A stretch of DNA of 45,459 nucleotides from a virus. Position numbers and translations under genes: made by a program. Under the pieces are notes generated by a model. It did no database searches, had not been told where the DNA came from, and saw only the letters and a list, made by a program, of their open reading frames with translations. This document shows positions 5,136-41,579 of the stretch, piece by piece. The DNA lies in IMG/VR virus record IMGVR_UViG_3300020733_000026, positions 1-45,459 of that record. One strand, given 5' to 3'. How positions within the stretch are numbered: position 1 is the stretch's first letter; every line of letters starts with the position of its first letter.

Positions 5136-5330
5136 ATGCAAACGACTGACGCTGCTGAATATCTCACCAAGAAACTCAAAGAGCAGCGCGAGATTATTAA
5201 GGATGAAGTGATTAGACAGGCTCTTCCACAAGAAGAGTACAGCAGACTACGCGGGGTCACTCAAGGACTTGACTTTGCGGTGCAACTAATTTTAGACCTT
5301 GCAAAAAAAGTGGAGGAAGATGATGGCTGA
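5136..5330 (+). CDS. Small conserved head-region protein, function unknown
   Basis: A 64-residue protein starting three bases after the portal stop, with GGAGG at 5123-5127 as ribosome site. It is helical and charged, with LTKKLKEQREIIKDEV near the N-terminus and LRGVTQGLDFAVQLILDLAKK near the C-terminus. Small helical proteins in this slot are common in related phages. Its last codons overlap the start of the GroES-like gene, so the two are probably co-translated. No enzymatic motif or membrane segment is seen. Confidence 0.75.
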   Translation: MQTTDAAEYLTKKLKEQREIIKDEVIRQALPQEEYSRLRGVTQGLDFAVQLILDLAKKVEEDDG

Positions 5331-5712
5331 TATAGATGTCGATAAGACAATGAGTGAAGCGGAACGGAAAGCAAAACAGCTTCCTGAACCGACTGGATAC
5401 CATATTTTATGTATGGTTCCTAAGATCGAAGATACGTTTGGCGACAGCGTCATCGTAAAGTCTGATAGGACGGTAAACATCGAAGAACAGACAACACTTG
5501 TGTTGTTCGTAGCTAAGGTCGGGCCGGATGCCTACAAAGACAAGAAGCGGTTCCCTTCAGGGCCGTGGTGTAAAGAAGGCGATTTTATTATCACAAGAGC
5601 TTATGCAGGAACGCGGGTGCGAATCCACGGGACTGAATGGCGCATCATTAACGATGACAGCGTTGACGGCGTTGTCGAAGATCCGCGTGGCATCTCACGC
5701 GCAGGAGGCTAA
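5323..5712 (+). CDS. GroES-like co-chaperonin
   Basis: The 129-residue product resembles a GroES/gp31 chaperonin cap. A first strand GYHILCMVPKI (25-35) is followed by a variable stretch in the mobile-loop position, then LVLFVAKVGPDAY (59-71), EGDFIITRAYAGTRVRIHG (85-103) and EWRIINDDSVDGVVED (105-120). These match the G-x-V-x-x-V-G, GD-x-V and final I-x-x-x-D-I-x-x-V pattern of the family. Extra residues at 72-84 and an N-terminal extension make it longer than host GroES (about 97 residues). The start at 5323 sits seven bases after GGAGG (5312-5316); an upstream TTG is rejected. Placed between portal and scaffold, it probably helps host GroEL fold the capsid protein, as gp31 does for T4. No GroEL gene is in the window. 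Confidence 0.75.
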   Translation: MADIDVDKTMSEAERKAKQLPEPTGYHILCMVPKIEDTFGDSVIVKSDRTVNIEEQTTLVLFVAKVGPDAYKDKKRFPSGPWCKEGDFIITRAYAGTRVRIHGTEWRIINDDSVDGVVEDPRGISRAGG

Positions 5713-8005: not shown

Positions 8006-8908
8006 ATGGCAATTTCACGCGCACAACTATTGAAGGAATTACTCCCCGGCTTGAACGCTTTGTTCGGTCTGGAGTACGCCTCTTATGGCGAAGAGCATAA
8101 AGAATTATTTGAAGTGGAAACTTCAGAGCGTTCTTTTGAAGAAGAGACCAAGCTGTCGGGCTTTAACGCGGCTCCGGTGAAAAACGAAGGTCAAGCGATT
8201 GCGTACGATAACGCGCAAGAAGCATGGACTGCTCGTTACAACCACGAGACCATCGCGTTGGGCTTTTCGATCACTGAAGAAGCGATTGAAGACAACTTGT
8301 ACGACTCGCTTTCCAAGCGTTATACGAAGGCTTTGGCCCGCGCTATGGCGTATACGAAGCAAGTCAAAGCTGCTGCTATCATCAACAACGGCTTTAACAG
8401 CCAGTATGTTGGCGGTGACGGACAACCCTTGTTCTCGACTGTCCACCCGTTAGTTTCTGGCGGTACGAACAGCAACACGTTCTCGACCTCACCTGACCTC
8501 AACGAAACCTCGCTGGAAGCGGCGACGATTCAGATTGCTGGCTGGACGGACGAGCGTGGGCTGTTGATCGCTGCGAAACCTCGTAAGCTTGTTGTCCCAC
8601 CAAACCAAATGTTCGTTGCCAAGCGTCTGCTTGACACTGAGCTGCGTGTTGGCACCTCGGACAACGACATCAACGCTCTGAAGGCTATGGGAACGATTTC
8701 GGAAGGGTTCAAAGTGAACCACTTCTTGACTGACACCCACGGCTATTACATCCTGACGGACGTGCCAAACGGCCTGAAGATGTTCGAGCGTACTCCGTTG
8801 CAAAACTCAATGGATGGTGATTTCGATACCGGCAACGTACGGTATAAGAGCCGCGAGCGTTACAGCTTCGGCTGGTCTGATCCACTGGGCGCGTTCGGCG
8901 TAGCCTAA
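8006..8908 (+). CDS. Major capsid protein (HK97 fold, Mu gpT-like)
   Basis: A 300-residue shell protein that would assemble into the icosahedral capsid on the scaffold. Segments typical of the Mu gpT/HK97-fold group are visible. These include ETIALGFSITEEAIEDNLYD (E-loop/P-domain region), ALARAMAYTKQVKAAAIINN (spine helix), LFSTVHPLVSGG, KPRKLVVPPNQMFVAKRLL, and near the end GYYILTDVPNGLKMFERTP and YSFGWSDPLGAFGV. Length is normal for a capsid protein without a long cleaved N-terminal domain. GGGAG at 7991-7995 precedes the ATG. A strong terminator follows 15 bases after the stop, which fits high expression of this last gene of the first structural operon. Confidence 0.93.
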   Translation: MAISRAQLLKELLPGLNALFGLEYASYGEEHKELFEVETSERSFEEETKLSGFNAAPVKNEGQAIAYDNAQEAWTARYNHETIALGFSITEEAIEDNLYDSLSKRYTKALARAMAYTKQVKAAAIINNGFNSQYVGGDGQPLFSTVHPLVSGGTNSNTFSTSPDLNETSLEAATIQIAGWTDERGLLIAAKPRKLVVPPNQMFVAKRLLDTELRVGTSDNDINALKAMGTISEGFKVNHFLTDTHGYYILTDVPNGLKMFERTPLQNSMDGDFDTGNVRYKSRERYSFGWSDPLGAFGVA

Positions 8909-9007: not shown

Positions 9008-9592
9008 ATGGACATTTCAACTTTGCCAAGAACGCGAGAAGAAGCTAGACGAACTAATGCTAAGTATTATTTTACGGGGGAACCCTGTAAACACGGGCAT
9101 ATTGCGCCGCGAAAAACAAAAGGCGTTTGTCTTGAGTGCTTAAAGACGCACTGGAAAGAATCTGCCGCTAAACGAGAAGACTATTTTGCTGACTATAACC
9201 GTAAGCGTCATGTACGGGAAAAGAAGCATGAATGGTATTTAAAAAATAAAGATAAAGTTATTGAGGCGGCTAATATTCGCCCTGCCGAAATTAAACGAAT
9301 TTACCGTAATACATGGAAAGAAAATAACCTTGTAAAAATACGGGCTGACGCAAAAGCTCGTAGACGTAAGCATAGACAGGCTACTCCGGGCTGGTTAACC
9401 CGAGCGGAACGAACCGAAATACGGCAGATTTATCAAATTGCTATTACCCTTAGCAAAAGCACGAATACGCAGTATGTAGTCGACCATATCATTCCTCTGC
9501 GGTCGGAGGAAGTCTGCGGCTTGCATGTCCCTTGGAACCTACGGGTCATCACTAGGGAGGAGAATTTAATTAAATCGAATAAAATTTTGTAA
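9008..9592 (+). CDS. HNH endonuclease (free-standing, homing-type)
   Basis: A 194-residue protein with a C-terminal HNH nuclease: VVDHIIPL (157-164, H160), GLHVPWNLRVI (171-181, N177) and NLIKSNK (186-192, N191), the arrangement of HNH enzymes in phage genomes. The N-terminus has a Cys/His cluster C-K-H-G-H plus C-L-E-C (27-44), likely a zinc-binding DNA-recognition module, followed by a long basic helical linker. It would cut DNA as a selfish element rather than serve the virion. It sits alone between a terminator and a new promoter, its reading frame looks more A/T-rich than its neighbours, and it interrupts an otherwise continuous structural block. These are signs of insertion. Confidence 0.9.
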   Translation: MDISTLPRTREEARRTNAKYYFTGEPCKHGHIAPRKTKGVCLECLKTHWKESAAKREDYFADYNRKRHVREKKHEWYLKNKDKVIEAANIRPAEIKRIYRNTWKENNLVKIRADAKARRRKHRQATPGWLTRAERTEIRQIYQIAITLSKSTNTQYVVDHIIPLRSEEVCGLHVPWNLRVITREENLIKSNKIL

Positions 9593-10751: not shown

Positions 10752-10940
10752 ATGGTTGATAAACATGATGTGATTAAAAACGGGCTAGATGTAGTGTCAG
10801 GTGTACTTGCTTTTAGCGCGGCAGCTAATGTATTTGATCCAATTTTGACCTTTTTTGCCAGTATTCTGTCGATTATATGGCTCTCATTACGCATTTGGGA
10901 TCATAAGTCGATCAGAAAACTGACTGGGAGAGTCGGATGA
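10752..10940 (+). CDS. Small membrane protein (holin-like candidate)
   Basis: A 62-residue protein with a hydrophobic stretch from about residue 14 to 47 (VVSGVLAFSAAANVF, then ILTFFASILSIIWLSLRIW), long enough for one or two membrane helices, and a basic C-terminus (DHKSIRKLTGRVG). Size and layout fit a small phage holin or pore-forming accessory protein, but it lies in a structural block, away from a lysis gene. A separate 3TM-type holin is encoded at 27003, so this may instead be a virion-associated membrane protein. It overlaps the next gene by ATGA. Confidence 0.65.
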   Translation: MVDKHDVIKNGLDVVSGVLAFSAAANVFDPILTFFASILSIIWLSLRIWDHKSIRKLTGRVG

Positions 10941-11128
10941 CTGATACTAGATGGATTAGTAAAGCAATTAAGCACCCCGGTGCATTGCATAAACAGTTAA
11001 AAGTGCCCGCTGGACAAAAAATTCCAGCTAAAAAGCTTGCTTCAGCGGCTAAAAAGCCGGGAAAAGTCGGTCAAAGGGCGCGTTTAGCACAAACTTTAGG
11101 CAAAATGAGTCATGCCAAGCGTAAGTAA
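10937..11128 (+). CDS. Small Lys-rich basic phage protein
   Basis: A 63-residue protein with 13 Lys and 4 Arg against one acidic residue. It opens WISKAIKHPGALHKQL and continues with PAKKLASAAKKPGK and QRARLAQTLGKM. The W-I-x-K-A-I-K-x-P-G-A-L opening and the K-L-A-x-A-A-K-K-P-G run recur in small proteins of many phages, with no assigned role. The AKKP repeats recall linker-histone tails, so nucleic-acid binding inside the head is a reasonable inference. It overlaps the gene before by ATGA and the gene after by 17 bases. Confidence 0.75.
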   Translation: MTDTRWISKAIKHPGALHKQLKVPAGQKIPAKKLASAAKKPGKVGQRARLAQTLGKMSHAKRK

Positions 11129-12041
11129 GCGTCAACACCGCTTAATGGAAGCCGTAGCCCACAATCCGGGCTTCGCTAAAAAGGTTGGTATACCTCAAAA
11201 AGTTGGAAAGCATTTTCACGAGGCAGATATGAAAGGCAAAAAGCGGTTTAGCGAAGGTGGATCGGCTAATGAAACCGATAATGAGCGAGAAATGAAGGCT
11301 GAATTAGCTGCGGCTAGGATAGCTCACAAGACTCCCCCTCCTCCCCCTCCTAAGCCAGACCCAAATAATCCTACTGGTTACAAAGGAATGATCCCTTACA
11401 AAAAAGGTGGAAAAGTTATGAAAGAATCGAAAGCAATGGCGCAAGCCGAAATGAAGGCTTTGAAGCGCGGTCATGCGCCTAAGAGCGTTATGGAACACGA
11501 AAAGAAGGAGCATAAAGAAATGGGCTACAAGAAAGGTGGGCACGTTAAACACAAGCCAAAACACCACGAGAAGCACATGAAGCGCGGTGGCGTTAGTGCT
11601 CGTATGAAGAAACCTGCCGTACCCCCTGCTGCTTTGGCAGCTATGATGGGTGGTGCGGGCGCGGGCATGGGCGCAGGTGCTGGCCCAGATATGGCAGGTG
11701 CTTCGGCTCCTCCGATGGGTGTGGCTCCCGGCATGAAAAAAGGCGGTCACGTTCACGTATCTCATCATCACCACTATGCCCGTGGAGGCCATGTGAAACA
11801 TCACGCGAAAGGCGGTATGACCGCTATGAAAGGTAAGGAATTTACCAAAGACCGCAAGGGTACTGAAAAAATTATTGGCGGCGGTAGCGACAAATCTAAG
11901 CATGGCGATGGTCATGTTAAGAAAGGACATACCAAAGCCAAAATGGTTAAAATGGCTTCCGGTGGACACGTTGGGTCACACAAGCATCGTCGAGCCGATG
12001 GTATTGCTGTGAAGGGTCATACTTCTTGTAAAATGCGGTAA
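11112..12041 (+). CDS. Basic His/Gly-Gly-repeat protein with C-terminal tag
   Basis: A 309-residue protein opening SKRQHRLMEAVAHNPGFAKK, a start I have seen on diverse phage proteins. The rest is low complexity. A Pro run (75-81) is followed by at least seven short motifs of the form aromatic/Met-x-Lys/Arg-Gly-Gly-His/Lys-Val: YKKGGKV, YKKGGHV, MKKGGHV, YARGGHV, MASGGHV and others. An Ala/Gly/Met segment lies at about 172-208, with long Lys/His stretches elsewhere. The last 17 residues (RRADGIAVKGHTSCKMR) resemble the end of the next protein. No enzyme domain is seen. The charge suggests DNA or membrane contact in the virion. The ATG at 11112 overlaps the previous gene. Confidence 0.75.
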   Translation: MPSVSKRQHRLMEAVAHNPGFAKKVGIPQKVGKHFHEADMKGKKRFSEGGSANETDNEREMKAELAAARIAHKTPPPPPPKPDPNNPTGYKGMIPYKKGGKVMKESKAMAQAEMKALKRGHAPKSVMEHEKKEHKEMGYKKGGHVKHKPKHHEKHMKRGGVSARMKKPAVPPAALAAMMGGAGAGMGAGAGPDMAGASAPPMGVAPGMKKGGHVHVSHHHHYARGGHVKHHAKGGMTAMKGKEFTKDRKGTEKIIGGGSDKSKHGDGHVKKGHTKAKMVKMASGGHVGSHKHRRADGIAVKGHTSCKMR

Positions 12042-12048
12042 GTGATTT

Positions 12049-12837
12049 ATGAAAGTAATTCCTAAAGCATTGCTGAAGAAGCACGCCAAAGTCAAAAGGA
12101 TGCCGAAGTCCAATAAACGGATGAAGCGTCATTTTGACGATGGTGGTGATGTAGAAGCCTCATTACCTAACTTCGATCCTAGTCAAATTGATAATCCTGC
12201 GCCTACTCTTGGCCCAGTCAATTACGACAATCTATCGTTCGGTAAAGCCTTCGCCCTTGCACGCAAAATGGGAGACAAGACTTTCAAATGGCGTGGTGGT
12301 TCTTACGGTACTCAGTTAGCCCAACCGGGCCAAGCTAAGTCTCCGTCTGTTGCTGCGGCTGATAGAGCGATTGCACACCAAGGCGCTGCTGCGGCTATGG
12401 ACATCCCTGAAGTAACAAGTACAGTGCGTCGATCTGGCCCACAAGACTTGACTGCAAGAGACATTTCCGGTCGTTATATAGACCCTGACTTCCAGAACTA
12501 TGTAGAACGCCGTGCGGGTAACCCTAACCCCCGTCAATTTACGGACGCTGACCGACAGGCTTTAATGGCTATGGGTCAACAGGCTTTAGCGAATCAAATT
12601 AAAGCACAGAACCGTTCGTATACTGATGCAGATAGACAGGCTTTAATTCTTCAAGCTATCCAAAATGCCAAAAATACACCACGGCAACAACCGGGGTATA
12701 TGTATGGTTCACCTAATATGAAAAAAGGTGGTAAGGTTGGTAAGAAGGTCGCCAAGTATGCCAAAGGCGGGCATATTGGGTCTAAACGTGGAGATGGTTT
12801 AGCTCAAAAGGGCAAAACCAAAGGTCGAGTTCGTTAA
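12049..12837 (+). CDS. Basic virion protein with F-x-W-x-G-x-x-Y motif and C-terminal tag
   Basis: A 262-residue protein with a Lys-rich N-terminus and an HFDDGGDV motif (28-35). It then has FGKAFALARKMGDKTFKWRG (64-83), a short motif common in phage virion proteins with the pattern A-F-x-x-A-R-x-x-G-x-x-x-F-x-W-x-G-x-x-Y. A tandem repeat of TDADRQAL occurs twice, about 40 residues apart, in a helical region. The C-terminus carries MKKGGKV (224-230), YAKGGHIGS (237-245) and KRGDGLAQKGKTKGRVR (246-262), which aligns without gaps with the end of the preceding protein. Function unknown; it is probably packaged in the virion. Confidence 0.75.
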   Translation: MKVIPKALLKKHAKVKRMPKSNKRMKRHFDDGGDVEASLPNFDPSQIDNPAPTLGPVNYDNLSFGKAFALARKMGDKTFKWRGGSYGTQLAQPGQAKSPSVAAADRAIAHQGAAAAMDIPEVTSTVRRSGPQDLTARDISGRYIDPDFQNYVERRAGNPNPRQFTDADRQALMAMGQQALANQIKAQNRSYTDADRQALILQAIQNAKNTPRQQPGYMYGSPNMKKGGKVGKKVAKYAKGGHIGSKRGDGLAQKGKTKGRVR

Positions 12838-12857: not shown

Positions 12858-13040
12858 ATGAAACATCATCATGTTAAGCATCATGCGAAGGGCGGTCACG
12901 TTCATCACCCCAAGCATCACGAGCCAAAACATCATCATGAGCATATGACTGCTCACGTGCATCATCACAAACACGGTGGTCACGTTGAAAGTCACGTAGC
13001 TCATCATGAGCATGTTCGTAAACACTATCACGGTAAATAA
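12858..13040 (+). CDS. Poly-histidine mini-protein (26 His in 60 residues)
   Basis: The 60-residue product is 43 % histidine with Lys, Val and Glu between, for example KHHHVKHHAKGGHVHHPKHH. It carries the same AKGGHV and HGGHV units as the two proteins before it. GGAG (12847-12850) precedes the ATG with good spacing, and the gene fits exactly between its neighbours, so it is unlikely to be a chance frame. The composition suggests binding of Zn, Ni or Cu, or pH-dependent charge switching, but no known fold or family was recognised. Confidence 0.75.
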   Translation: MKHHHVKHHAKGGHVHHPKHHEPKHHHEHMTAHVHHHKHGGHVESHVAHHEHVRKHYHGK

Positions 13041-13043
13041 ACC

Positions 13044-13394
13044 ATGATGGCTTCGCGGGGAATGGGCGCTATTAATCCTAAGAAAGTAATTAGGAAAGAT
13101 GCGCTCGTCCCCACGAAAGTGTTTTGCGAAGGTGGAATGGCTAAAGGTGGCAAGACTGAAGCTTGGACTCGCAAGGAGGGCAAAAACCCTAATGGCGGGC
13201 TTAATGCTAAGGGTAGAGCAAGCTATAACCGTGCTCACGGTGCTCACTTAAAAGCCCCGCAACCAGAAGGCGGCAAGCGTAGGAATTCATTCTGTCGAAG
13301 AATGAAAGGGATGAGAAAGAAGCTTACGAGTGCCAAAACTGCACGTGATCCAAATAGTCGGATTAATAAATCGCTTAGAGCGTGGAACTGCTAA
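13044..13394 (+). CDS. Small basic conserved phage protein (DUF6321-like)
   Basis: A 116-residue basic protein. The core TEAWTRKEGKNPNGGLNAKG (about 48-67), KRRNSFCRRMKGMRKKL and the ending INKSLRAWNC match the pattern of a small protein family I recall from T4-like cyanophages and other phages (A-W-x-R-K-E-G-K-x-P-x-G-G-L-N-x-K-G ... S-F-C-x-R-M ... L-R-x-W-x-C). I believe this is DUF6321, but the name is from memory. It also holds FCEGGMAKGGK, a Gly-Gly motif as in neighbours. There is no good ribosome site at the ATG pair 13044/13047, so translation is probably coupled to the His-rich gene that stops at 13040. Confidence 0.75.
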   Translation: MMASRGMGAINPKKVIRKDALVPTKVFCEGGMAKGGKTEAWTRKEGKNPNGGLNAKGRASYNRAHGAHLKAPQPEGGKRRNSFCRRMKGMRKKLTSAKTARDPNSRINKSLRAWNC

Positions 13395-14750: not shown

Positions 14751-15056
14751 ATGACTAACAAATGGCGTGATTTTGAGTACTTCGACGCTGACGAGCCGAA
14801 TCCAATCGGTAAGTACAAGCAGCCGATGCAGAATCCTCGGTTTACCAAAGGTTCAGGCTATCCGGAAGACGATATTGGTTTGACCGGAACCAAGACCTAT
14901 GGTCGCTATATTAAACCGTTTGGTAAGAAGAAAAACCAAATGGAAATCCGTGGTTGCAAAAATACGACTCGCGGCAAAAAGTTTTACTTGGACGACATGG
15001 ATCGTGATCCAGTGCAAACTAACGGTCGTATCCCAGTGGACGATGGGCATAACTAA
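14751..15056 (+). CDS. Small structural-module protein, function unknown
   Basis: A 101-residue hydrophilic protein with GGGG at 14740-14743 as a possible ribosome site. Segments are WRDFEYFDADEPNPIGKYKQ and GLTGTKTYGRYIKPFGKKKN, then GCKNTTRGKKFYLDDMDRDP. There is no membrane segment or enzyme motif. It overlaps the SU10-like adaptor gene by TAATG, so it is likely made with the connector proteins. I do not recognise the family. Confidence 0.65.
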   Translation: MTNKWRDFEYFDADEPNPIGKYKQPMQNPRFTKGSGYPEDDIGLTGTKTYGRYIKPFGKKKNQMEIRGCKNTTRGKKFYLDDMDRDPVQTNGRIPVDDGHN

Positions 15057-33935: not shown

Positions 33936-34814
33936 ATGGCTGACGTAACACCTACATCAAGTACCGTATATCAAAATGCAATTCAACCTGAGTTGTTGCC
34001 GTATGCCTCGCAAATATTAGGCACTGCCCAAGGAGTTTATTCTGCTCAAGGCGCTACTGATCCTACTACGGGCTTACCTGCGGGTCTAGCGGGACAACTG
34101 CAACAAGTAGCGGGATTTAGTCCGTTACAAAACCAAGCGTTTAATAATATTCAGCAGATGCAGCCTTCGGCGCAAACGAACCAAGCTACTGGTATGGCAG
34201 GGTTAGCGGGGTTAGCCGCTATGAATATCCCTCAGTATACTGGGGCAAATGTTCAGCAGTATATGAATCCTTATTTGCAGACGACTCAAAATGCGGCTAT
34301 CTCAAACTATGCGAATAGCTTACCGTCATTGGGTTCGGCTGCATCTCAAGTGGGTGGTCTAGGCGGGTCTCGTGAAGCCCTCATGCAAGCGCAAGCGCAA
34401 CAGGGCCTACAAAATACTTTGGCTGGTAACGTAGCCAATGCGTTCCAGAACGCTCAAAACCAATTCAACACTTCTGTTGCACAGCAACAACAGGGCCAGA
34501 ATACCGCGATTAATGCCGCCAACACTCTTGGCAATCTTGGATTGCAGAACTTCCAACAACAAGCTGGCATTAACACCGCTCTCTTGGGTGCTGGACAGTT
34601 ACAACAGCAACAGCAACAGAACATCTATAATACGGGTGTCGCTAACGCGCAGTTGCAAGCTAACTATCCGTGGCAGCAATCTCAGAACTTTATGAACTTG
34701 GTACGTGGTACACCGACAGCTACTACGGGTACGACCACTTCTACGGCAACCCCAAGCATTGGAGCGAACCTCGCTAACCTCGGTCTTGGGTCACTCTTCG
34801 GAGTCGGGGGATAA
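33936..34814 (+). CDS. Internal virion (ejection-type) protein, Gln-rich
   Basis: A 292-residue helical protein rich in Gln, Ala and Asn. QQYMNPYLQTTQNAAISNYA and GLGGSREALMQAQAQQGLQN, then ANAFQNAQNQFNTSVAQQQQ, match a family in aquatic podoviruses with the markers Y-M-N-P-Y and G-G-S-R-x-A-L. These proteins sit beside other internal proteins and are thought to be ejected or to line the internal core. A hydrophobic Gly-rich end (LANLGLGSLFGVGG) could insert in a membrane. Coiled-coil content is high. Confidence 0.7.
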   Translation: MADVTPTSSTVYQNAIQPELLPYASQILGTAQGVYSAQGATDPTTGLPAGLAGQLQQVAGFSPLQNQAFNNIQQMQPSAQTNQATGMAGLAGLAAMNIPQYTGANVQQYMNPYLQTTQNAAISNYANSLPSLGSAASQVGGLGGSREALMQAQAQQGLQNTLAGNVANAFQNAQNQFNTSVAQQQQGQNTAINAANTLGNLGLQNFQQQAGINTALLGAGQLQQQQQQNIYNTGVANAQLQANYPWQQSQNFMNLVRGTPTATTGTTTSTATPSIGANLANLGLGSLFGVGG

Positions 34815-34817
34815 TTT

Positions 34818-36515
34818 ATGATGCCATCTAACATGACCGCGATATACCAGCGCATTAAGCAGTTGCAATCGCAAGGCATACCACAGAACCAAATTGACGC
34901 GATCCTTAAAAATACTGATCCCACCGTCAATAGCGTCTCTTTGGAAGATGCTGAACGAATGATTGAGTATTCTAAAACTCATCCCGCAATGGTTCAGCCC
35001 CCTCCACAAGACAATGTAATCGTATCATTGGCTAAACAAATTGCTGCTCAAGATGCGGCTAAAAAAGCTGGTATTATGAATGCACTGCCGGGTCAGCAAC
35101 CACTCCCCGGCCAACAACCTTTGCCCGGTAATGCGCCTATGCAAGCACAACAAAACCCCGGAATCGCTGCGCTGCCTGTGGCGAATGTAGGCAATCAGAA
35201 AGCTTATGCGTCTGGTGGTATCGTCGCGTTTGATGTTGGTGGTAATGTTGAAAGTCAGATGATTGAGGCGCGTATGTTAGGGGCGCAAGGGACTCCTCAA
35301 GCTTCTCAAGCTATGCCGTGGGAACAACAGGAAAATGCGAATTTAGGTGACGTAGATTTTGCTGCGGCGCACGGCGGCCCTGTTAGACATTATGATGTTG
35401 GTGGTGACGTTTTTGATAGTAGGCGTTTATTCGGTGGAATAGTACCTACCCCCTATTCTGACTTAGCTTTCGGCCCACAAATAACTTTACCGGCATCTTC
35501 AGCGCAAGATCAAACTGAGTCTGTGACCACACCTCCGGCTCCGTCAAATGTTGGTATCGCTGGAAAGCATCCTGCTAATGTTCCTCAAGATCAGTCATTC
35601 AATCAATGGCTACAACAACAGCAAGCCAATTTAAATAATTGGAAACCTAAAGATTACACAAGCCTAATGACAGAGATGCAAAATGCTCAAGGCTTCCCTG
35701 AACTACGTCAACACGTGGTAGGTCAATTAGGTAACGCCCATGACATCGCTCAAAGACAGTACGACATCGCTAATGGAAAAGGTGCGGCTGCGGCGGGTAT
35801 GGAAGCCGGTATGGTAACTGCCGGTGCTAATGGTATGAGTCCTAACTACGCAGGGCAGGGTCTTGCTAGTATTTTGGCGACGATGAATCGTAATATTGCG
35901 GGTCGGTCTGCTGCACAAGCGCAAGCTGCTAAAGACCTTGCTGGAAGTCAACTGTCCCTTACTAAGATGGATATGGACTCTACGTTGGCAGACGAAGCCA
36001 ACCGACGCAACGATATCCGTTACGCTATGGGACTGACCAGAGAAGATATGCGGGATCACGCTACGGAGTTGAACAACTATATTGGGCATAGAATCACTTT
36101 ACAAGGCGTTGAAGAAAGTGCTGCTGCAAGAAGGGATGCTGCTCAGGCTAGAATTGAATCGCAGCAAACGATGAAGTCTATTTATGAAAATCCTGTAACG
36201 CTACAACAACGAGCAGTTTTGGACTCTCTGAATAAGAAGTATCCAAATGATCCGACTAAAGCGTTGCAGGAATACTACAACACAACCCCACAAGGTAAAA
36301 AAGTTGATTTAGAGGCTCAAAAAACTTTAATGAATGATCCTGAATACAGTAGGCAGTATGCGACATACAATAACCTTAATTCGTCCGATGCACAAAAAGC
36401 TACCGCTGTGCGTATAATGAGGGAAAGAGCGCAGCGATTACAAGTGGATGAAAATTTAGCAGTGCCGGGTAATTCGTTAGCGTTCCCTACTGGTAGCCCA
36501 TACGAGATTCCATAA
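34818..36515 (+). CDS. Internal virion protein with paired Gly-Gly motifs
   Basis: A 565-residue protein. The N-terminus is helical (MTAIYQRIKQLQSQGIPQNQ), followed by a Pro/Gln linker with two LPGQQP copies. YASGGIVAFDVGGNV (130-144) and HGGPVRHYDVGGDV (185-198) are two related motifs, which also resemble HFDDGGDV in the 12049 protein. Residues about 260-560 are helical and charged (ARIESQQTMKSIYENPVTLQ), like an internal core or ejection protein. Position between two other internal proteins supports this. The function of the motifs is unknown. Confidence 0.7.
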   Translation: MMPSNMTAIYQRIKQLQSQGIPQNQIDAILKNTDPTVNSVSLEDAERMIEYSKTHPAMVQPPPQDNVIVSLAKQIAAQDAAKKAGIMNALPGQQPLPGQQPLPGNAPMQAQQNPGIAALPVANVGNQKAYASGGIVAFDVGGNVESQMIEARMLGAQGTPQASQAMPWEQQENANLGDVDFAAAHGGPVRHYDVGGDVFDSRRLFGGIVPTPYSDLAFGPQITLPASSAQDQTESVTTPPAPSNVGIAGKHPANVPQDQSFNQWLQQQQANLNNWKPKDYTSLMTEMQNAQGFPELRQHVVGQLGNAHDIAQRQYDIANGKGAAAAGMEAGMVTAGANGMSPNYAGQGLASILATMNRNIAGRSAAQAQAAKDLAGSQLSLTKMDMDSTLADEANRRNDIRYAMGLTREDMRDHATELNNYIGHRITLQGVEESAAARRDAAQARIESQQTMKSIYENPVTLQQRAVLDSLNKKYPNDPTKALQEYYNTTPQGKKVDLEAQKTLMNDPEYSRQYATYNNLNSSDAQKATAVRIMRERAQRLQVDENLAVPGNSLAFPTGSPYEIP

Positions 36516-36524
36516 GAGGGTATC

Positions 36525-39500
36525 GTGCCTTATAACATCTATCTGCCGAATGGTGATCGTGTAGAGAATATACCGGACGAAGTATCCCGTGATGAGGCGA
36601 TGTTACGTCTACGCAATGCGTATCCTCATGCGTTTCCCGCGCCACACGAAGAGACAGTAGGTGGGGCTTTTTTAAAAGGGTTTCGTAAAGCTGGGGCTGA
36701 TTTACAAACAGCCTACGGGATGGCTACTGAAGATTCTCGACAGGCTGCGATTGAGGCTTTAGAACGTAACCGAGAGATTGAAGAAAAGTACGGTACAAGT
36801 CCTGAGTTTTCTGACGTATCCGGTAAATGGAATAAGGGTGACTATTTAGGCGCTTTAGGCGAGGCGGGGAAACAATTCGTCAAGGCTAGTGGTGAAAACC
36901 TTCCTGCTATGGCTGGTATAGGTACTGTTGGTTATTTTGGTGGGCTACCCGCCGCCGCCGCCGCTGCATACGCCATGCGCGTTCCTTCTGGATTCGCGGC
37001 TCAAGCCGAATCTCAATTGGCAGAGGGTAAACCTCTCGAAGACGTAAGCAAGGCTAAATCCTTTGAGTATGCGGCTCCAATGGCTGCGCTTGATGTTGTA
37101 TCCGAGCTTGTACCGATGGGTCGAGGTGTTGTAAGCAAAGTATTTGGCCCTGAAGTTGCAAAATTACTGGAAAGAGGTGCAACTGCGGAAGCTGAAGTTG
37201 CTGCTAGAAGTAGATTAGCGGCGGGCGCTATCGGAATGGGCAAGAACCTTGCCGTTCAAGGCGTAATACAACCCACTGAAGTAGCCCTACAACGTGCTGA
37301 GAACGGACAAGATCTATTAAGCAAAGACGCTTTAGAATCCTACGGCGCTTCGCTTTATCAAGCAGGATTACTGTCACCTTTAGGTATTTATGGTGGTCTA
37401 TCTGAACGTAGCGCCGCTAAAGCTAGATTAGCTAAAAAAGCTAAATTAGCTAAAGAAACTATGGCATTTAGGGTTGATCCTGATACTGGTGAAGTAGTAC
37501 CGCCGAATGAAGAAGCGCAAGCTGCATCGCAAGAAGCGGTCGAACCTGTTAAACCGCCACCTGTAGAAACAAAACCTGAGCAGGGCGATTTATTTGAAGA
37601 GCCAGCCAAACCCGTTGAAGCTGCGCCCGAACCTGCTGCACCGCAAGAAGCGGTCGAACCTGTTAAACCGCCACCTGTAGAAACAAAATGGGCGTTCTGG
37701 CCTGAGCAGGGCGATTTATTTGAAGAGCCAGCTACGCCTGAACAACCTGCTACGCCTGAACCTGCTGCTGAAACCCCTGTTGAGCAACCGAAACCAGTGC
37801 TTGATGATGGACTTAAACAAAGGATTAAAAGCAAGTTCTCCGATCTAGTTCGTTCTATAAATATGTTAAAGCGAGAGGGTTGGATTGACTCAGATAAATC
37901 TAATGATTACTTAGCCCAGTTAGCGAATATAAGACTTGACGCGACTTCGCTTAAAGACTTTTTGCCTTTTGAAAGACAGATCGCAAAAGACTTCGGGACA
38001 GCTAAAAAAGTCTCCGATGAAACCGTTAAGGTACGACCTTCTAGGGATGAGGGTGAACCCAGAGCGTTAACTGGGCGTGACTTAAGTTATTCTGAAAGCG
38101 ATGTGACTGATGGAGTCACAGGGTCTAGTACTGTTGAAGATGTAGAAAACAAAATTAGAAGCGAGTTTGGTATTCACGGTGATCGACTGCTTGATAGCGG
38201 CAAGGTAACAGTAGTACCGGATGTAGATTCTCTGCCTCCTCGTGAAGATGGATTAGACCATCCAGAAGGCGCTCGTGGTGCTGTGATTGGAGATAACGCA
38301 TATATCGTTGCTGGCAATATCGGCGTTGATGAAGTTAAAAGCGTCATGCTCCACGAGGTCGGAGCGCATATTGGTTTAGAACGAATGATACCCGCCGACC
38401 AATATCAGCGTATTCTGAATGATGCAGAAAAAAGAATTCAGAATGGTGAAGAACCTTTTGTTAAAGCCCGCGCCCGTGCAGATGCTGTGGTAGATGCAAA
38501 TGATCCAGATCGTGAAGACACTGTGCGTAGAGAAACGCTTGCATACCTGATCGAGAATCGACCAGACTTACCGTTTGTAAAACGAATCCTAAGTCAAATA
38601 AAAGTAGCATTGAATAATTGGTCTGGCGGACGGTTGTTTAACCTCAACGCGGATGATTTGCGTACCGCAGCTATAGGGGCTTTACGCCGGGTGAGTTCTG
38701 CCGAAGAAGCCGCTCGACCTGATTCGTTCTATCGGAAGAATAATCCTACCATCAGTTATTCTAAGGCTGCTAAACAAACCGTAACCCGTATTGAGGATGC
38801 AGTGCGTGTCAATCTACCCGACCCCACTGATAGCATTTTAGGGAAAGCTAGAAGTATATTTTTCGGGGCAAGCAACCTGCCTACCATGTTAAGAAACGGT
38901 ATCAATAGCTTCTTGAGTATCCATGACTTCGCTCGATTCTATGGCGATAAGGTTCCTGAGTTAAAAACGCTAGATGCGTTTCAAAATAACTTCCAGTATG
39001 AACTGAATGAAGGCAGGGAAAAGATAAACAAGAATATTAAAAACTGGATGTCTTTGCTGAGAGATGAAAAGACTGGCAAAATGAAGTTTGATAAAGCGAC
39101 GATGAAACGCTTTATGTCTATTGCGTTAGACACTACCATTAACCAAGTAGAAGTCTTAGACACGCCAGAAAGAATTGTGGATGGCGTAAAGATCAACAGT
39201 CGTAAGGTCGCTCCTAAAAATCCACAAGAAGCTAAGATCGTACAAGACTTCAATAAGCTGCCTGAAGAACTTAAAAGAATCTACCGTGAGTTACGGGACG
39301 AGTACGATTCAAAAAGTGCTAAATACTTAGACGCTGCATCTAAGATGGGCGCTAGTGAACAGGCTATAAAAGCGTTTAGAGAGTCATACGAGAAGAACCG
39401 TCTGCAAGTCTACTTGCCTTTATTCCGTCGGGGCAACTACTGGTTATCATTTGAAGATGCCGATGGTCAATCGTATCGTATGGCGTTCCGTAGTTACCTA

Positions 39501-41579
39501 GAACGTGAGCAAGCAATGAAAGATGCTAAAGCTCAAGGCGCGGTAAATGTAACTAAATTCAAACGTCTGGAAGAACTAATCCAACGTGATAAAGAACGTC
39601 CACCAATGGGCATCCTCGGTGACATGATGAAGCTGGTAGGCGATAAAGCCGACCCGGGATTGCGTAATGCCATATACGAGACCTACTTAGATTACCTTCC
39701 GGCTTCGTCGTTAAAGCAAAGATTTAGAAGTCGTAGCAACCTAAACATTCTCGGTATGGAGTCCGACATCATCCAAGCCTACGCTCATGTTGGTGGGGCT
39801 ATGGAAAACGCCTTGGCTAAGATTAAGAACTCTCCTAAGCAAGACGAGATAATGAAGTCGATCAAGGCACGAGTAGAAAGCTCGCCGCCTGAAGAAAAAG
39901 AAAAGCTGCAAGAAATGTATGCGTCCCTTAATGAGCAGGTGAACTTCTTTAATAACCCTCATTACAACAACCTAATCAGTAAGGCTGGTTGGTATAGCTA
40001 CATTTGGGACTTGGCGGGTAACGCATCTACAGCAGTCGTGGCGCTTCTCCACTCACCTATTCTAGTATCACGGTTAGCCGCAGAGCATGGGTACGGCAAA
40101 GCATTTAGCGCCTTGTTAGATGCAACTACTAAATTCAAAATCCGTATGGGCGAGGATGACCGCACCACGTTGCCGGAAAACTATTCTGCTCTTGCCGAAC
40201 GTGCGTTAAAAGAAGGCGCGTTGGGGTATCACATTGGTCGGGAGATGTTTGACATACGCGAGACTCCTATCGTCGATTACACAGGCATGAAGTCTAAAGT
40301 AACGAACGGTATGAATTACATGCTACAACTCGCAGACCGATTCAATCGAGAGGCCGTCCTCAAAGCTGCCTACGAATTAGAGTTGGCTAAAAATGAAACC
40401 ACGCACGAGACTGCCACTGAAGAACAAAAACGCACCGCAGAAGAAGTAGCTATCAATCACGTTAAGGATGGTTACGGGTCTGCCTTTTCTCAAACTGGCC
40501 CCGCTATTAACCACAAGTTTATGGGTGCAGGTAGATTGGCTTTTACGTTTAAGCGGTTCGCCTTTGCCCGTCTTGCTAACTTAGCCAAGATGTTTAATAC
40601 CGTATTCTCTGACCCTACAAAAGATTTAGACGCAACGCTTCAAGGTATGAAGGACGCTGGCAAGACTCCTGCCGAGATCAAAGCCTACGAAGATCATATC
40701 AGTACGCTTAAGGACAATTACCAAGCCACTCGCAAGATGGCTATGAAGACTTTGTTAGGTTATTACGCCACTGCATTTGCGATGTCGGGTGTGTCGGGTA
40801 TGCCATTAGTAGGCGGGTTGAAATACTTGGCCCAGCTCCTCAGTGACGAGTTCGCTGATGCACCGCATGACATAGATGCCGAACTGCATGATCTCATGGG
40901 CGAGTTTATGTACAAAGGCCCGATAAATGCCTTGATGGGTATTGAGATGGCAGACCGTACGGGCTGGAACGATATGTTCTGGAAAGAAGAACCGAGTCAC
41001 ATGGCAGAGTCGTCAGCGTTTGGTTGGCTGGGTGAACGTGCCTTCGGCCCGATTTATAGCCTAGCCTCAAAGAGCTATCATGGACTTCAGTTATTCAAAG
41101 ACGGTCAGTTTGAGCGTGGACTTGAAATGGTCATGCCTACGGCAATAGCGAACGTAGCAAAAGCCTTACGGTATGCAAGCGAGGGCGCTAGAACAGAAAG
41201 CGGTCGGGTTCTGTCGGATGATGTCAACGGCTACAACGTCCTGATGCAAGCTATCGGGTTTGCTCCTACTAAGGTTAATGAACCTAGAGCGCGGCAAGAA
41301 GCTATGTCCGAGATGCAGAAGAAGTTAGATTCTCAACGCAATAGTCTTTTGACTAAGATGTACTCTGCCGAGGAGCGCGGGGATGCAGATGACATGACCA
41401 ATGTATATGAGAGGATTTATAAATACAACGAGACGTTCCCAGACAACCCCATCACAGAGTCGGATATCGACCGTCATAGAAATACCATGCACAGCAGAGA
41501 GCAGAATGCAGTTGACGGATTCCAAGCCAAAAAGAAATGGGCAGGGTATTTAAGAGAAGAATACGGGGTTAGGGATTAA
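36525..41579 (+). CDS. Giant ejection-type (polyvalent) protein with peptidase-like domain
   Basis: A 1684-residue protein starting at GTG 36525 after GAGGG. An N-terminal module IYLPNGDRVENIPDEVSRDE is typical of large phage polyvalent proteins. A hydrophobic Ala/Gly stretch at about 125-165 follows, then a Glu/Pro linker (about 325-430). A zincin-like domain carries HEVGAH (H610, E611, H615) with acidic helix RRETLAYLIEN (E670, E677). The spacing is HExxxH, not the classic HExxH, so activity is uncertain. The long helical C-terminal half includes a region AGRLAFTFKRFAFARLANLA and a hydrophobic segment near 1405-1440. The size, hydrophobic parts and last position fit a protein ejected with the DNA, like T7 gp16, that may span or modify the cell envelope. 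Confidence 0.75.
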   Translation: MPYNIYLPNGDRVENIPDEVSRDEAMLRLRNAYPHAFPAPHEETVGGAFLKGFRKAGADLQTAYGMATEDSRQAAIEALERNREIEEKYGTSPEFSDVSGKWNKGDYLGALGEAGKQFVKASGENLPAMAGIGTVGYFGGLPAAAAAAYAMRVPSGFAAQAESQLAEGKPLEDVSKAKSFEYAAPMAALDVVSELVPMGRGVVSKVFGPEVAKLLERGATAEAEVAARSRLAAGAIGMGKNLAVQGVIQPTEVALQRAENGQDLLSKDALESYGASLYQAGLLSPLGIYGGLSERSAAKARLAKKAKLAKETMAFRVDPDTGEVVPPNEEAQAASQEAVEPVKPPPVETKPEQGDLFEEPAKPVEAAPEPAAPQEAVEPVKPPPVETKWAFWPEQGDLFEEPATPEQPATPEPAAETPVEQPKPVLDDGLKQRIKSKFSDLVRSINMLKREGWIDSDKSNDYLAQLANIRLDATSLKDFLPFERQIAKDFGTAKKVSDETVKVRPSRDEGEPRALTGRDLSYSESDVTDGVTGSSTVEDVENKIRSEFGIHGDRLLDSGKVTVVPDVDSLPPREDGLDHPEGARGAVIGDNAYIVAGNIGVDEVKSVMLHEVGAHIGLERMIPADQYQRILNDAEKRIQNGEEPFVKARARADAVVDANDPDREDTVRRETLAYLIENRPDLPFVKRILSQIKVALNNWSGGRLFNLNADDLRTAAIGALRRVSSAEEAARPDSFYRKNNPTISYSKAAKQTVTRIEDAVRVNLPDPTDSILGKARSIFFGASNLPTMLRNGINSFLSIHDFARFYGDKVPELKTLDAFQNNFQYELNEGREKINKNIKNWMSLLRDEKTGKMKFDKATMKRFMSIALDTTINQVEVLDTPERIVDGVKINSRKVAPKNPQEAKIVQDFNKLPEELKRIYRELRDEYDSKSAKYLDAASKMGASEQAIKAFRESYEKNRLQVYLPLFRRGNYWLSFEDADGQSYRMAFRSYLEREQAMKDAKAQGAVNVTKFKRLEELIQRDKERPPMGILGDMMKLVGDKADPGLRNAIYETYLDYLPASSLKQRFRSRSNLNILGMESDIIQAYAHVGGAMENALAKIKNSPKQDEIMKSIKARVESSPPEEKEKLQEMYASLNEQVNFFNNPHYNNLISKAGWYSYIWDLAGNASTAVVALLHSPILVSRLAAEHGYGKAFSALLDATTKFKIRMGEDDRTTLPENYSALAERALKEGALGYHIGREMFDIRETPIVDYTGMKSKVTNGMNYMLQLADRFNREAVLKAAYELELAKNETTHETATEEQKRTAEEVAINHVKDGYGSAFSQTGPAINHKFMGAGRLAFTFKRFAFARLANLAKMFNTVFSDPTKDLDATLQGMKDAGKTPAEIKAYEDHISTLKDNYQATRKMAMKTLLGYYATAFAMSGVSGMPLVGGLKYLAQLLSDEFADAPHDIDAELHDLMGEFMYKGPINALMGIEMADRTGWNDMFWKEEPSHMAESSAFGWLGERAFGPIYSLASKSYHGLQLFKDGQFERGLEMVMPTAIANVAKALRYASEGARTESGRVLSDDVNGYNVLMQAIGFAPTKVNEPRARQEAMSEMQKKLDSQRNSLLTKMYSAEERGDADDMTNVYERIYKYNETFPDNPITESDIDRHRNTMHSREQNAVDGFQAKKKWAGYLREEYGVRD
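37528..37732 (+). repeat. Direct repeat in the Pro/Glu linker with a 12-base insertion
   Basis: Bases 37528-37574 recur exactly at 37642-37688 and bases 37575-37606 recur exactly at 37701-37732. The second copy is split by 12 extra bases (37689-37700) that encode Trp-Ala-Phe-Trp. Identity at silent sites means a recent duplication. Confidence 0.95.

Follow-up and report, generated by a model that had tools for sequence, protein, structure and literature searches.

Two neighbouring genes in a 45,459-nucleotide virus sequence (IMG/VR record IMGVR_UViG_3300020733_000026; this whole stretch is called the window here) encode proteins with unlike bodies and a common short C-terminal tag, and this tag also ends scores of unrelated proteins across an abundant phage family of fresh and marine waters. 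That the tag acts as a portable C-terminal short linear motif, which directs late proteins of small size and basic charge to the prohead or the virion, is a reading for which we see roughly balanced chances.

Both open reading frames were confirmed on the plus strand (11112-12041 and 12049-12837), and their final 17 residues, RRADGIAVKGHTSCKMR and KRGDGLAQKGKTKGRVR respectively, align without gaps, as the first-pass annotation of this DNA had reported; it had counted nine identities, and our recount gives eight. Each tag is preceded by the GGH-V/I-GS described there, and in the first protein three additional residues (HKH) are inserted between the two. Eight or more identities arise by chance with P ~ 2 × 10-4 when the last 40 residues of each protein are shuffled, which is moderate evidence taken alone, and one other pair among the 175 mechanical ORFs of the window also has eight identities, a spurious match of low complexity. 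The two bodies are indeed unlike: their alignment scores at the shuffled level (10% of shuffles match its score), Pfam and PHROG searches place them in no common family, and we reject full-length paralogy on these grounds. The N-terminal module of the first protein matches phrog_16759 and PHROG virion structural proteins, and the second protein has no match in Pfam and PHROG searches. Within the window alone the pair is suggestive and not decisive, and outside evidence settles its significance.

Table 1. Features of the window that bear on the C-terminal tag
Feature	Position	Strand	Basis or remark
Tagged protein 1, 309 aa	11112-12041	+	Very basic, GG-x-V/K repeats, body pI 10.3
N-terminal module D, PSxSKxQHxLMxAVAHNPxFAKKVGIPQxVGKxF	11112-11243	+	phrog_16759/22033/25121
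Degenerate upstream tag copy HGDGHVKKGHTKAKMV in the 11112 protein (tandem tag)	11901-11948	+	Sequence; missed in the first-pass annotation
C-terminal tag 1, GGHVGS-HKH-RRADGIAVKGHTSCKMR	11961-12038	+	Sequence
Tagged protein 2, 262 aa, basic; AlphaFold model mostly disordered	12049-12837	+	ORF
Module F FGKAFALARKMGDKTFKWRGGSYGTQ, small helix-hairpin	12226-12318	+	Best-confidence part of AlphaFold model
C-terminal tag 2, GGHIGS-KRGDGLAQKGKTKGRVR	12766-12834	+	Sequence; disordered in model
60-aa His-rich protein, GGHV repeats, untagged, same gene run	12858-13040	+	ORF
DUF6321 protein	13044-13394	+	PF19846, E 3e-22
Major capsid protein (MCP), marker of the tag-carrying lineage	8006-8908	+	PF25209, phrog_371
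Co-chaperonin, GroES-like, lineage feature	5299-5712	+	phrog_3188
Ejection-type: DNA ejection protein (phrog_4287) and DarB-like protein (phrog_10089)	33936-41579	+	PHROG matches

In IMG/VR, at least 120 stretches matched a DNA pattern encoding DG[hydrophobic]Ax[KR]GxT[KR]G, with no stop codon included, whereas the pattern with its codon order reversed gave no match in the whole collection. The tag has the form [KR][AG]DG[IC]Ax[KR]GxT[KR]Gxxx-COOH, with the fuller consensus [FYM]xxGGxVxSASKRADG[IC]Ax[KR]GKT[RK]G[KR][MIF][VC]. A sister form, RGxGAAxKGxxF-x(2-8)-COOH, was prompted by the end of HTVC023P gp51 and scanned likewise, and 119 of its 121 matches lie 15 residues or fewer before the stop. 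The two forms make up the exact C-terminus of hundreds of small, basic and otherwise unrelated IMG/VR proteins, which bears out the earlier remark that similar endings occur on other small phage proteins.

Among the matches listed, the tagged set consists of 322 ORFs on 140 loci. The stop falls exactly five residues past the T of the motif in 170 of these 322, and much of the remainder has a second fixed form, KMxKMxxGGKxC, with the stop 13-14 residues past the T. Counted over unique cases, the DGxA motif lies within eight residues of the C-terminus in 130 of 234 among the matches listed, against 19 expected, and the RGxGAA form does so in 96 of 100, against 11 expected, the expected counts being those for uniform placement within the same ORFs. 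The search of phage proteins that the first-pass annotation had proposed thus finds the motif strongly C-terminal in the IMG/VR loci, and of the two outcomes it had named as contrary to its claim, a motif no more frequent at C-termini than elsewhere and a pair of full-length paralogues, we find neither. Many contigs among the matches listed have two to six tagged ORFs, usually neighbouring genes, and tandem copies of the tag occur in 11 of the 322 tagged proteins. With their fixed distance from motif to stop and their unrelated bodies, both window proteins fit this family of portable C-terminal tags. A tblastn search of the phage collection with the bare tag and one tagged protein gave no match, probably through low-complexity filtering; neither tag alignment found anything meaningful in the PDB, and the open-access literature yielded nothing relevant on a comparable C-terminal phage tag or on the domain.

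Stripped of the tag, the DGxA-tagged bodies among the matches listed form between 84 and 148 unrelated clusters, the number varying with the stringency applied, and one large cluster has 83 members. The bodies are strongly basic (median pI 9.9, 92% above 9) compared with the other genes of the same genomes (6.7, 35%). Pfam and PHROGs reveal no enzymatic domain in 140 DGxA-tagged proteins, and the matches are almost only to the function-unknown modules D (phrog_16759), DUF6321 and DUF6496. In DUF6321 homologues of tagged phages, the tag stands directly after the domain (RAWNCADGGYVKSADGIAQRGKTKGKMC). Of 107 sister-tagged proteins, 5 have LysM peptidoglycan-binding domains, and module D is also found with the sister tag: 70 proteins with the D body have the ending DGxAxKGxT and one has RGCGAATKGTSF. 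Because the same body takes both endings, the tag and its sister form seem to be versions of a single signal. As an observation on the LysM-bearing proteins themselves (L212 3102-3707 and similar), these could be cargo that acts on the cell wall.

The modules also occur in other settings. Module D was found in 124 phage records, including those of phiKZ (PHIKZ165.1), Eowyn and BUCT555; many of the records are of jumbo phages such as phiKZ, and the module stands alone or fused to virion structural proteins (examples are window 11112-11243 and L199 3001-3177). Module F (FxxAFxxARxxGxxxFxWxGKxY) is present in other tagged proteins, in the crAss-like protein cr107_1 and in the T7-like Rhizobium phage RHEph01, where it lies near the scaffold gene, between head-tail joining and capsid assembly genes; a further copy is in a Roseobacter phage, and outside the window the module was located on unrelated phage proteins at L201 4942-7320, L204 5010-5510 and L203 4405-4800. 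PDB searches with module F, the MCP and the crAss-like protein gave no meaningful match. In eight or more PHROG families DUF6321 makes up the C-terminal portion, and it may therefore be another portable end module.

A homologue of the window MCP is present in 25 of 30 tested tag-bearing records (59-87% identity), and the window MCP is 61% identical to that of HTVC023P, which puts the window in the HTVC023P-like MCP lineage. Three records without an MCP region (G005, G016 and G017) have homologues of the neck and tail genes of the window or of HTVC023P, and they are fragments of the same lineage of HTVC023P-like short-tailed phages; of the remaining tested records, G024 is unplaced and G020 has a portal match only. 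Across 84,980 GTDB genomes, 7 contigs match the pattern and only two have a tagged ORF, both in assemblies with the window's MCP, so that the tag is carried mainly by lytic phages. The annotated relatives comprise the Pelagibacter phages HTVC023P and HTVC027P, Roseobacter phages CRP-901/902, DSL-LC04 and the Planktothrix phage Pag-Yong1. Cultured members carry the tag: in HTVC023P, gp32, beside the gene in the portal position, ends in RPDGIRGVGAAIRGHKFIGVK and gp51 in GGGAAVRGMGFKGVF, and UMO75986.1 of Pag-Yong1 ends in GRDGCAKRGRTKGRFI. The stretches of HTVC027P, CRP-902 and DSL-LC04 that were read show no tag, so that head assembly does not depend on it.

Where the MCP gene could be mapped in a genome, the genes with a DGxA-type tag follow it on the same strand at a distance of 0.6-4.5 kb, apart from one gene between TerL and portal. 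As would be expected of virion cargo, the DGxA-tagged genes lie in the structural region beside the head genes. Small proteins with an RGTGxATKG ending lie further downstream. Two further regex matches in the MCP neighbourhood were rejected as chance, their ends being without the tag. As a separate feature of this region, the window has an endonuclease VII/HNH-like ORF (9008-9592, phrog_1035) as an insertion after the MCP gene and before the structural gene that follows.

When tags of the same contig are paired, they differ in 10% of their residues and in 58% of their fourfold codons, where unrelated codons differ in 70-75%. Since the fourfold codons have diverged and the residues are kept, it is the peptide that is conserved and not the DNA, and the shared tags are not mainly due to recent copying of DNA. 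An AlphaFold model of the 12049 protein from a five-sequence alignment has a mean pLDDT of 49.5; module F (about residues 61-90, helix plus hairpin) is its best-modelled part with a pLDDT of 75-80, and residues 213-262, which include the tag, fall below 50 and are modelled as disordered. With so thin an alignment, the model agrees with a disordered tag tail and does not prove it.

We read the tag as a docking signal because it is short, C-terminal, conserved in its residues and disordered in the model, and because it sits on unrelated basic head-region proteins of one capsid lineage. Small, basic and largely disordered late proteins with unrelated bodies would bear the common tag, a single shared part of the head under assembly (scaffold, portal or the inner surface of the capsid) would bind it, this binding would bring the tagged proteins into the prohead, and they would remain in the virion as cargo, perhaps to be ejected with the DNA. 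The cluster of head genes, the basic and disordered carriers and the link to one capsid lineage all fit the earlier suggestion of a sorting, scaffold-binding or DNA-packing signal; the signal role itself we infer, as we do the binding to a head component, the presence in the virion and a role after ejection. The carriers also hold modules with links to virions (D, through PHROG virion structural proteins, F and LysM), and gene position and charge bear on sorting indirectly. The ejection-type proteins of the window suggest that its phage packages cargo proteins; one of them, the DarB-like protein of 1684 aa (36525-41579), has an antirestriction match to phrog_10089. The lineage papers that we searched yielded no virion proteomics of tagged phages, and neither a tag-binding partner nor a structure was found.

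Portable targeting signals of two kinds are known for capsids. Encapsulin cargo-loading peptides are short, C-terminal, present on unrelated cargo proteins and load these into an HK97-fold shell. The T4 capsid targeting sequence (CTS) is likewise portable and brings unrelated internal proteins into the phage prohead, and it is N-terminal and removed by the protease gp21. The tag resembles the encapsulin peptides in being short, C-terminal and on unrelated proteins, but it occurs in phages on small basic proteins, and a GSLxI-type core was found in 0 of 443 tagged proteins, for which reason we reject an encapsulin cargo-loading peptide. A T4-type CTS is rejected as well, as the tag is at the extreme C-terminus and only 19 of the 443 have a gp21-type [LI]xE site among their last 40 residues. 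If the tag does have a sorting role, it works like the portable capsid-targeting signals but belongs to neither of these two types, because their sequence cores or cleavage sites are absent or rare in the tagged proteins. DUF6321 (PF19846) and phrog_16759 modules are, like the tag, short and shared by various phage proteins, in which they are often terminal; they differ from it in sequence and have a wider spread (cyanophages, jumbo phages). Among virion-packed accessory proteins, the cargo proteins of crAss001 (gp45 and others) are stored in head and tail (PMC10172136). As in the tagged proteins, gp45 has GG-x repeats and a basic C-terminal end, whereas the crAss001 cargo proteins are large and without the C-terminal tag. 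The crAss-like protein cr107_1, which has module F, gave no clear sequence match to the proven cargo gp45, and for this reason the link between these two is only positional.

The basic, G/R/K-rich composition of tag and bodies, together with the disorder of the tag in the model, would also be expected if the RG/K-rich tail bound nucleic acid, so that the tagged proteins would compact phage DNA, cover it or attach to RNA inside the cell, and packaging would be unnecessary. We hold this to be unlikely, as the invariant D, A and T, the fixed spacing and the fixed distance to the stop exceed what non-specific charge needs, and confinement to one capsid lineage points to a protein partner. The position of the tagged genes among head and neck genes, and of a GroES gene near the MCP gene in the lineage, could instead mean that the tag attaches proteins to the outer face of head or neck as decoration, or that an assembly helper (the phage GroES or a protease) recognises it, with no packaging signal involved. 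This is rather improbable, since no known decoration or protease site was found (T4-type [LI]xE in 19 of 443, encapsulin GSLxI in none), and carriers that are basic and mostly without recognisable folds are probably unlike the usual decoration proteins.

Shared ancestry alone would have one old gene duplicated repeatedly, with bodies that diverged and a C-terminus that survived without a signalling function, and the GG-x-V repeats common to some bodies, the tandem tags and the one large body cluster of 83 members are in line with it. Several bodies have distinct modules of their own (D, F, DUF6321, LysM), however, so that the tag was joined to different proteins, and a functionless end would not stay at 90% identity while codons diverge; we give this explanation little credence. 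A conserved element at the level of the DNA, for instance a recombination site by which gene ends are shuffled, with the peptide as a by-product, would account for tags at gene junctions on many bodies but is very improbable given the divergence of fourfold sites between tags of one contig described above.

Sorting into the head remains the reading that we prefer, and if it holds, scores of unannotated proteins are marked at once as packaged in the virion, a simple rule predicts what these phages carry into cells, and a short peptide becomes available for loading foreign proteins into phage heads. Two cultured phages (HTVC023P and Pag-Yong1) are already tagged, which makes the idea testable now. 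A broader form, put forward tentatively and somewhat doubtful in our view, is that the tag is a lineage-wide address label by which one of the most abundant aquatic phage groups loads changing sets of unrelated small basic proteins into its heads through one C-terminal peptide, as a phage counterpart of the encapsulin targeting peptides, so that any gene could become virion cargo by gaining about 20 residues.

Two smaller observations concern proteins near the tagged pair. A small basic module, FIxKAIKxPGxL...KKPGKxGQRARLAxTL (window 10937-11128; L205 4690-4956), is shared with HTVC027P gp44, and it shows a weak, below-cut-off similarity to Fusellovirus VP2. At 14751-15056 the window encodes a small protein with an internal, degenerate RGxGAAxKGxxF (EIRGCKNTTRGKKFY), and its apparent relatives elsewhere end in the sister tag.
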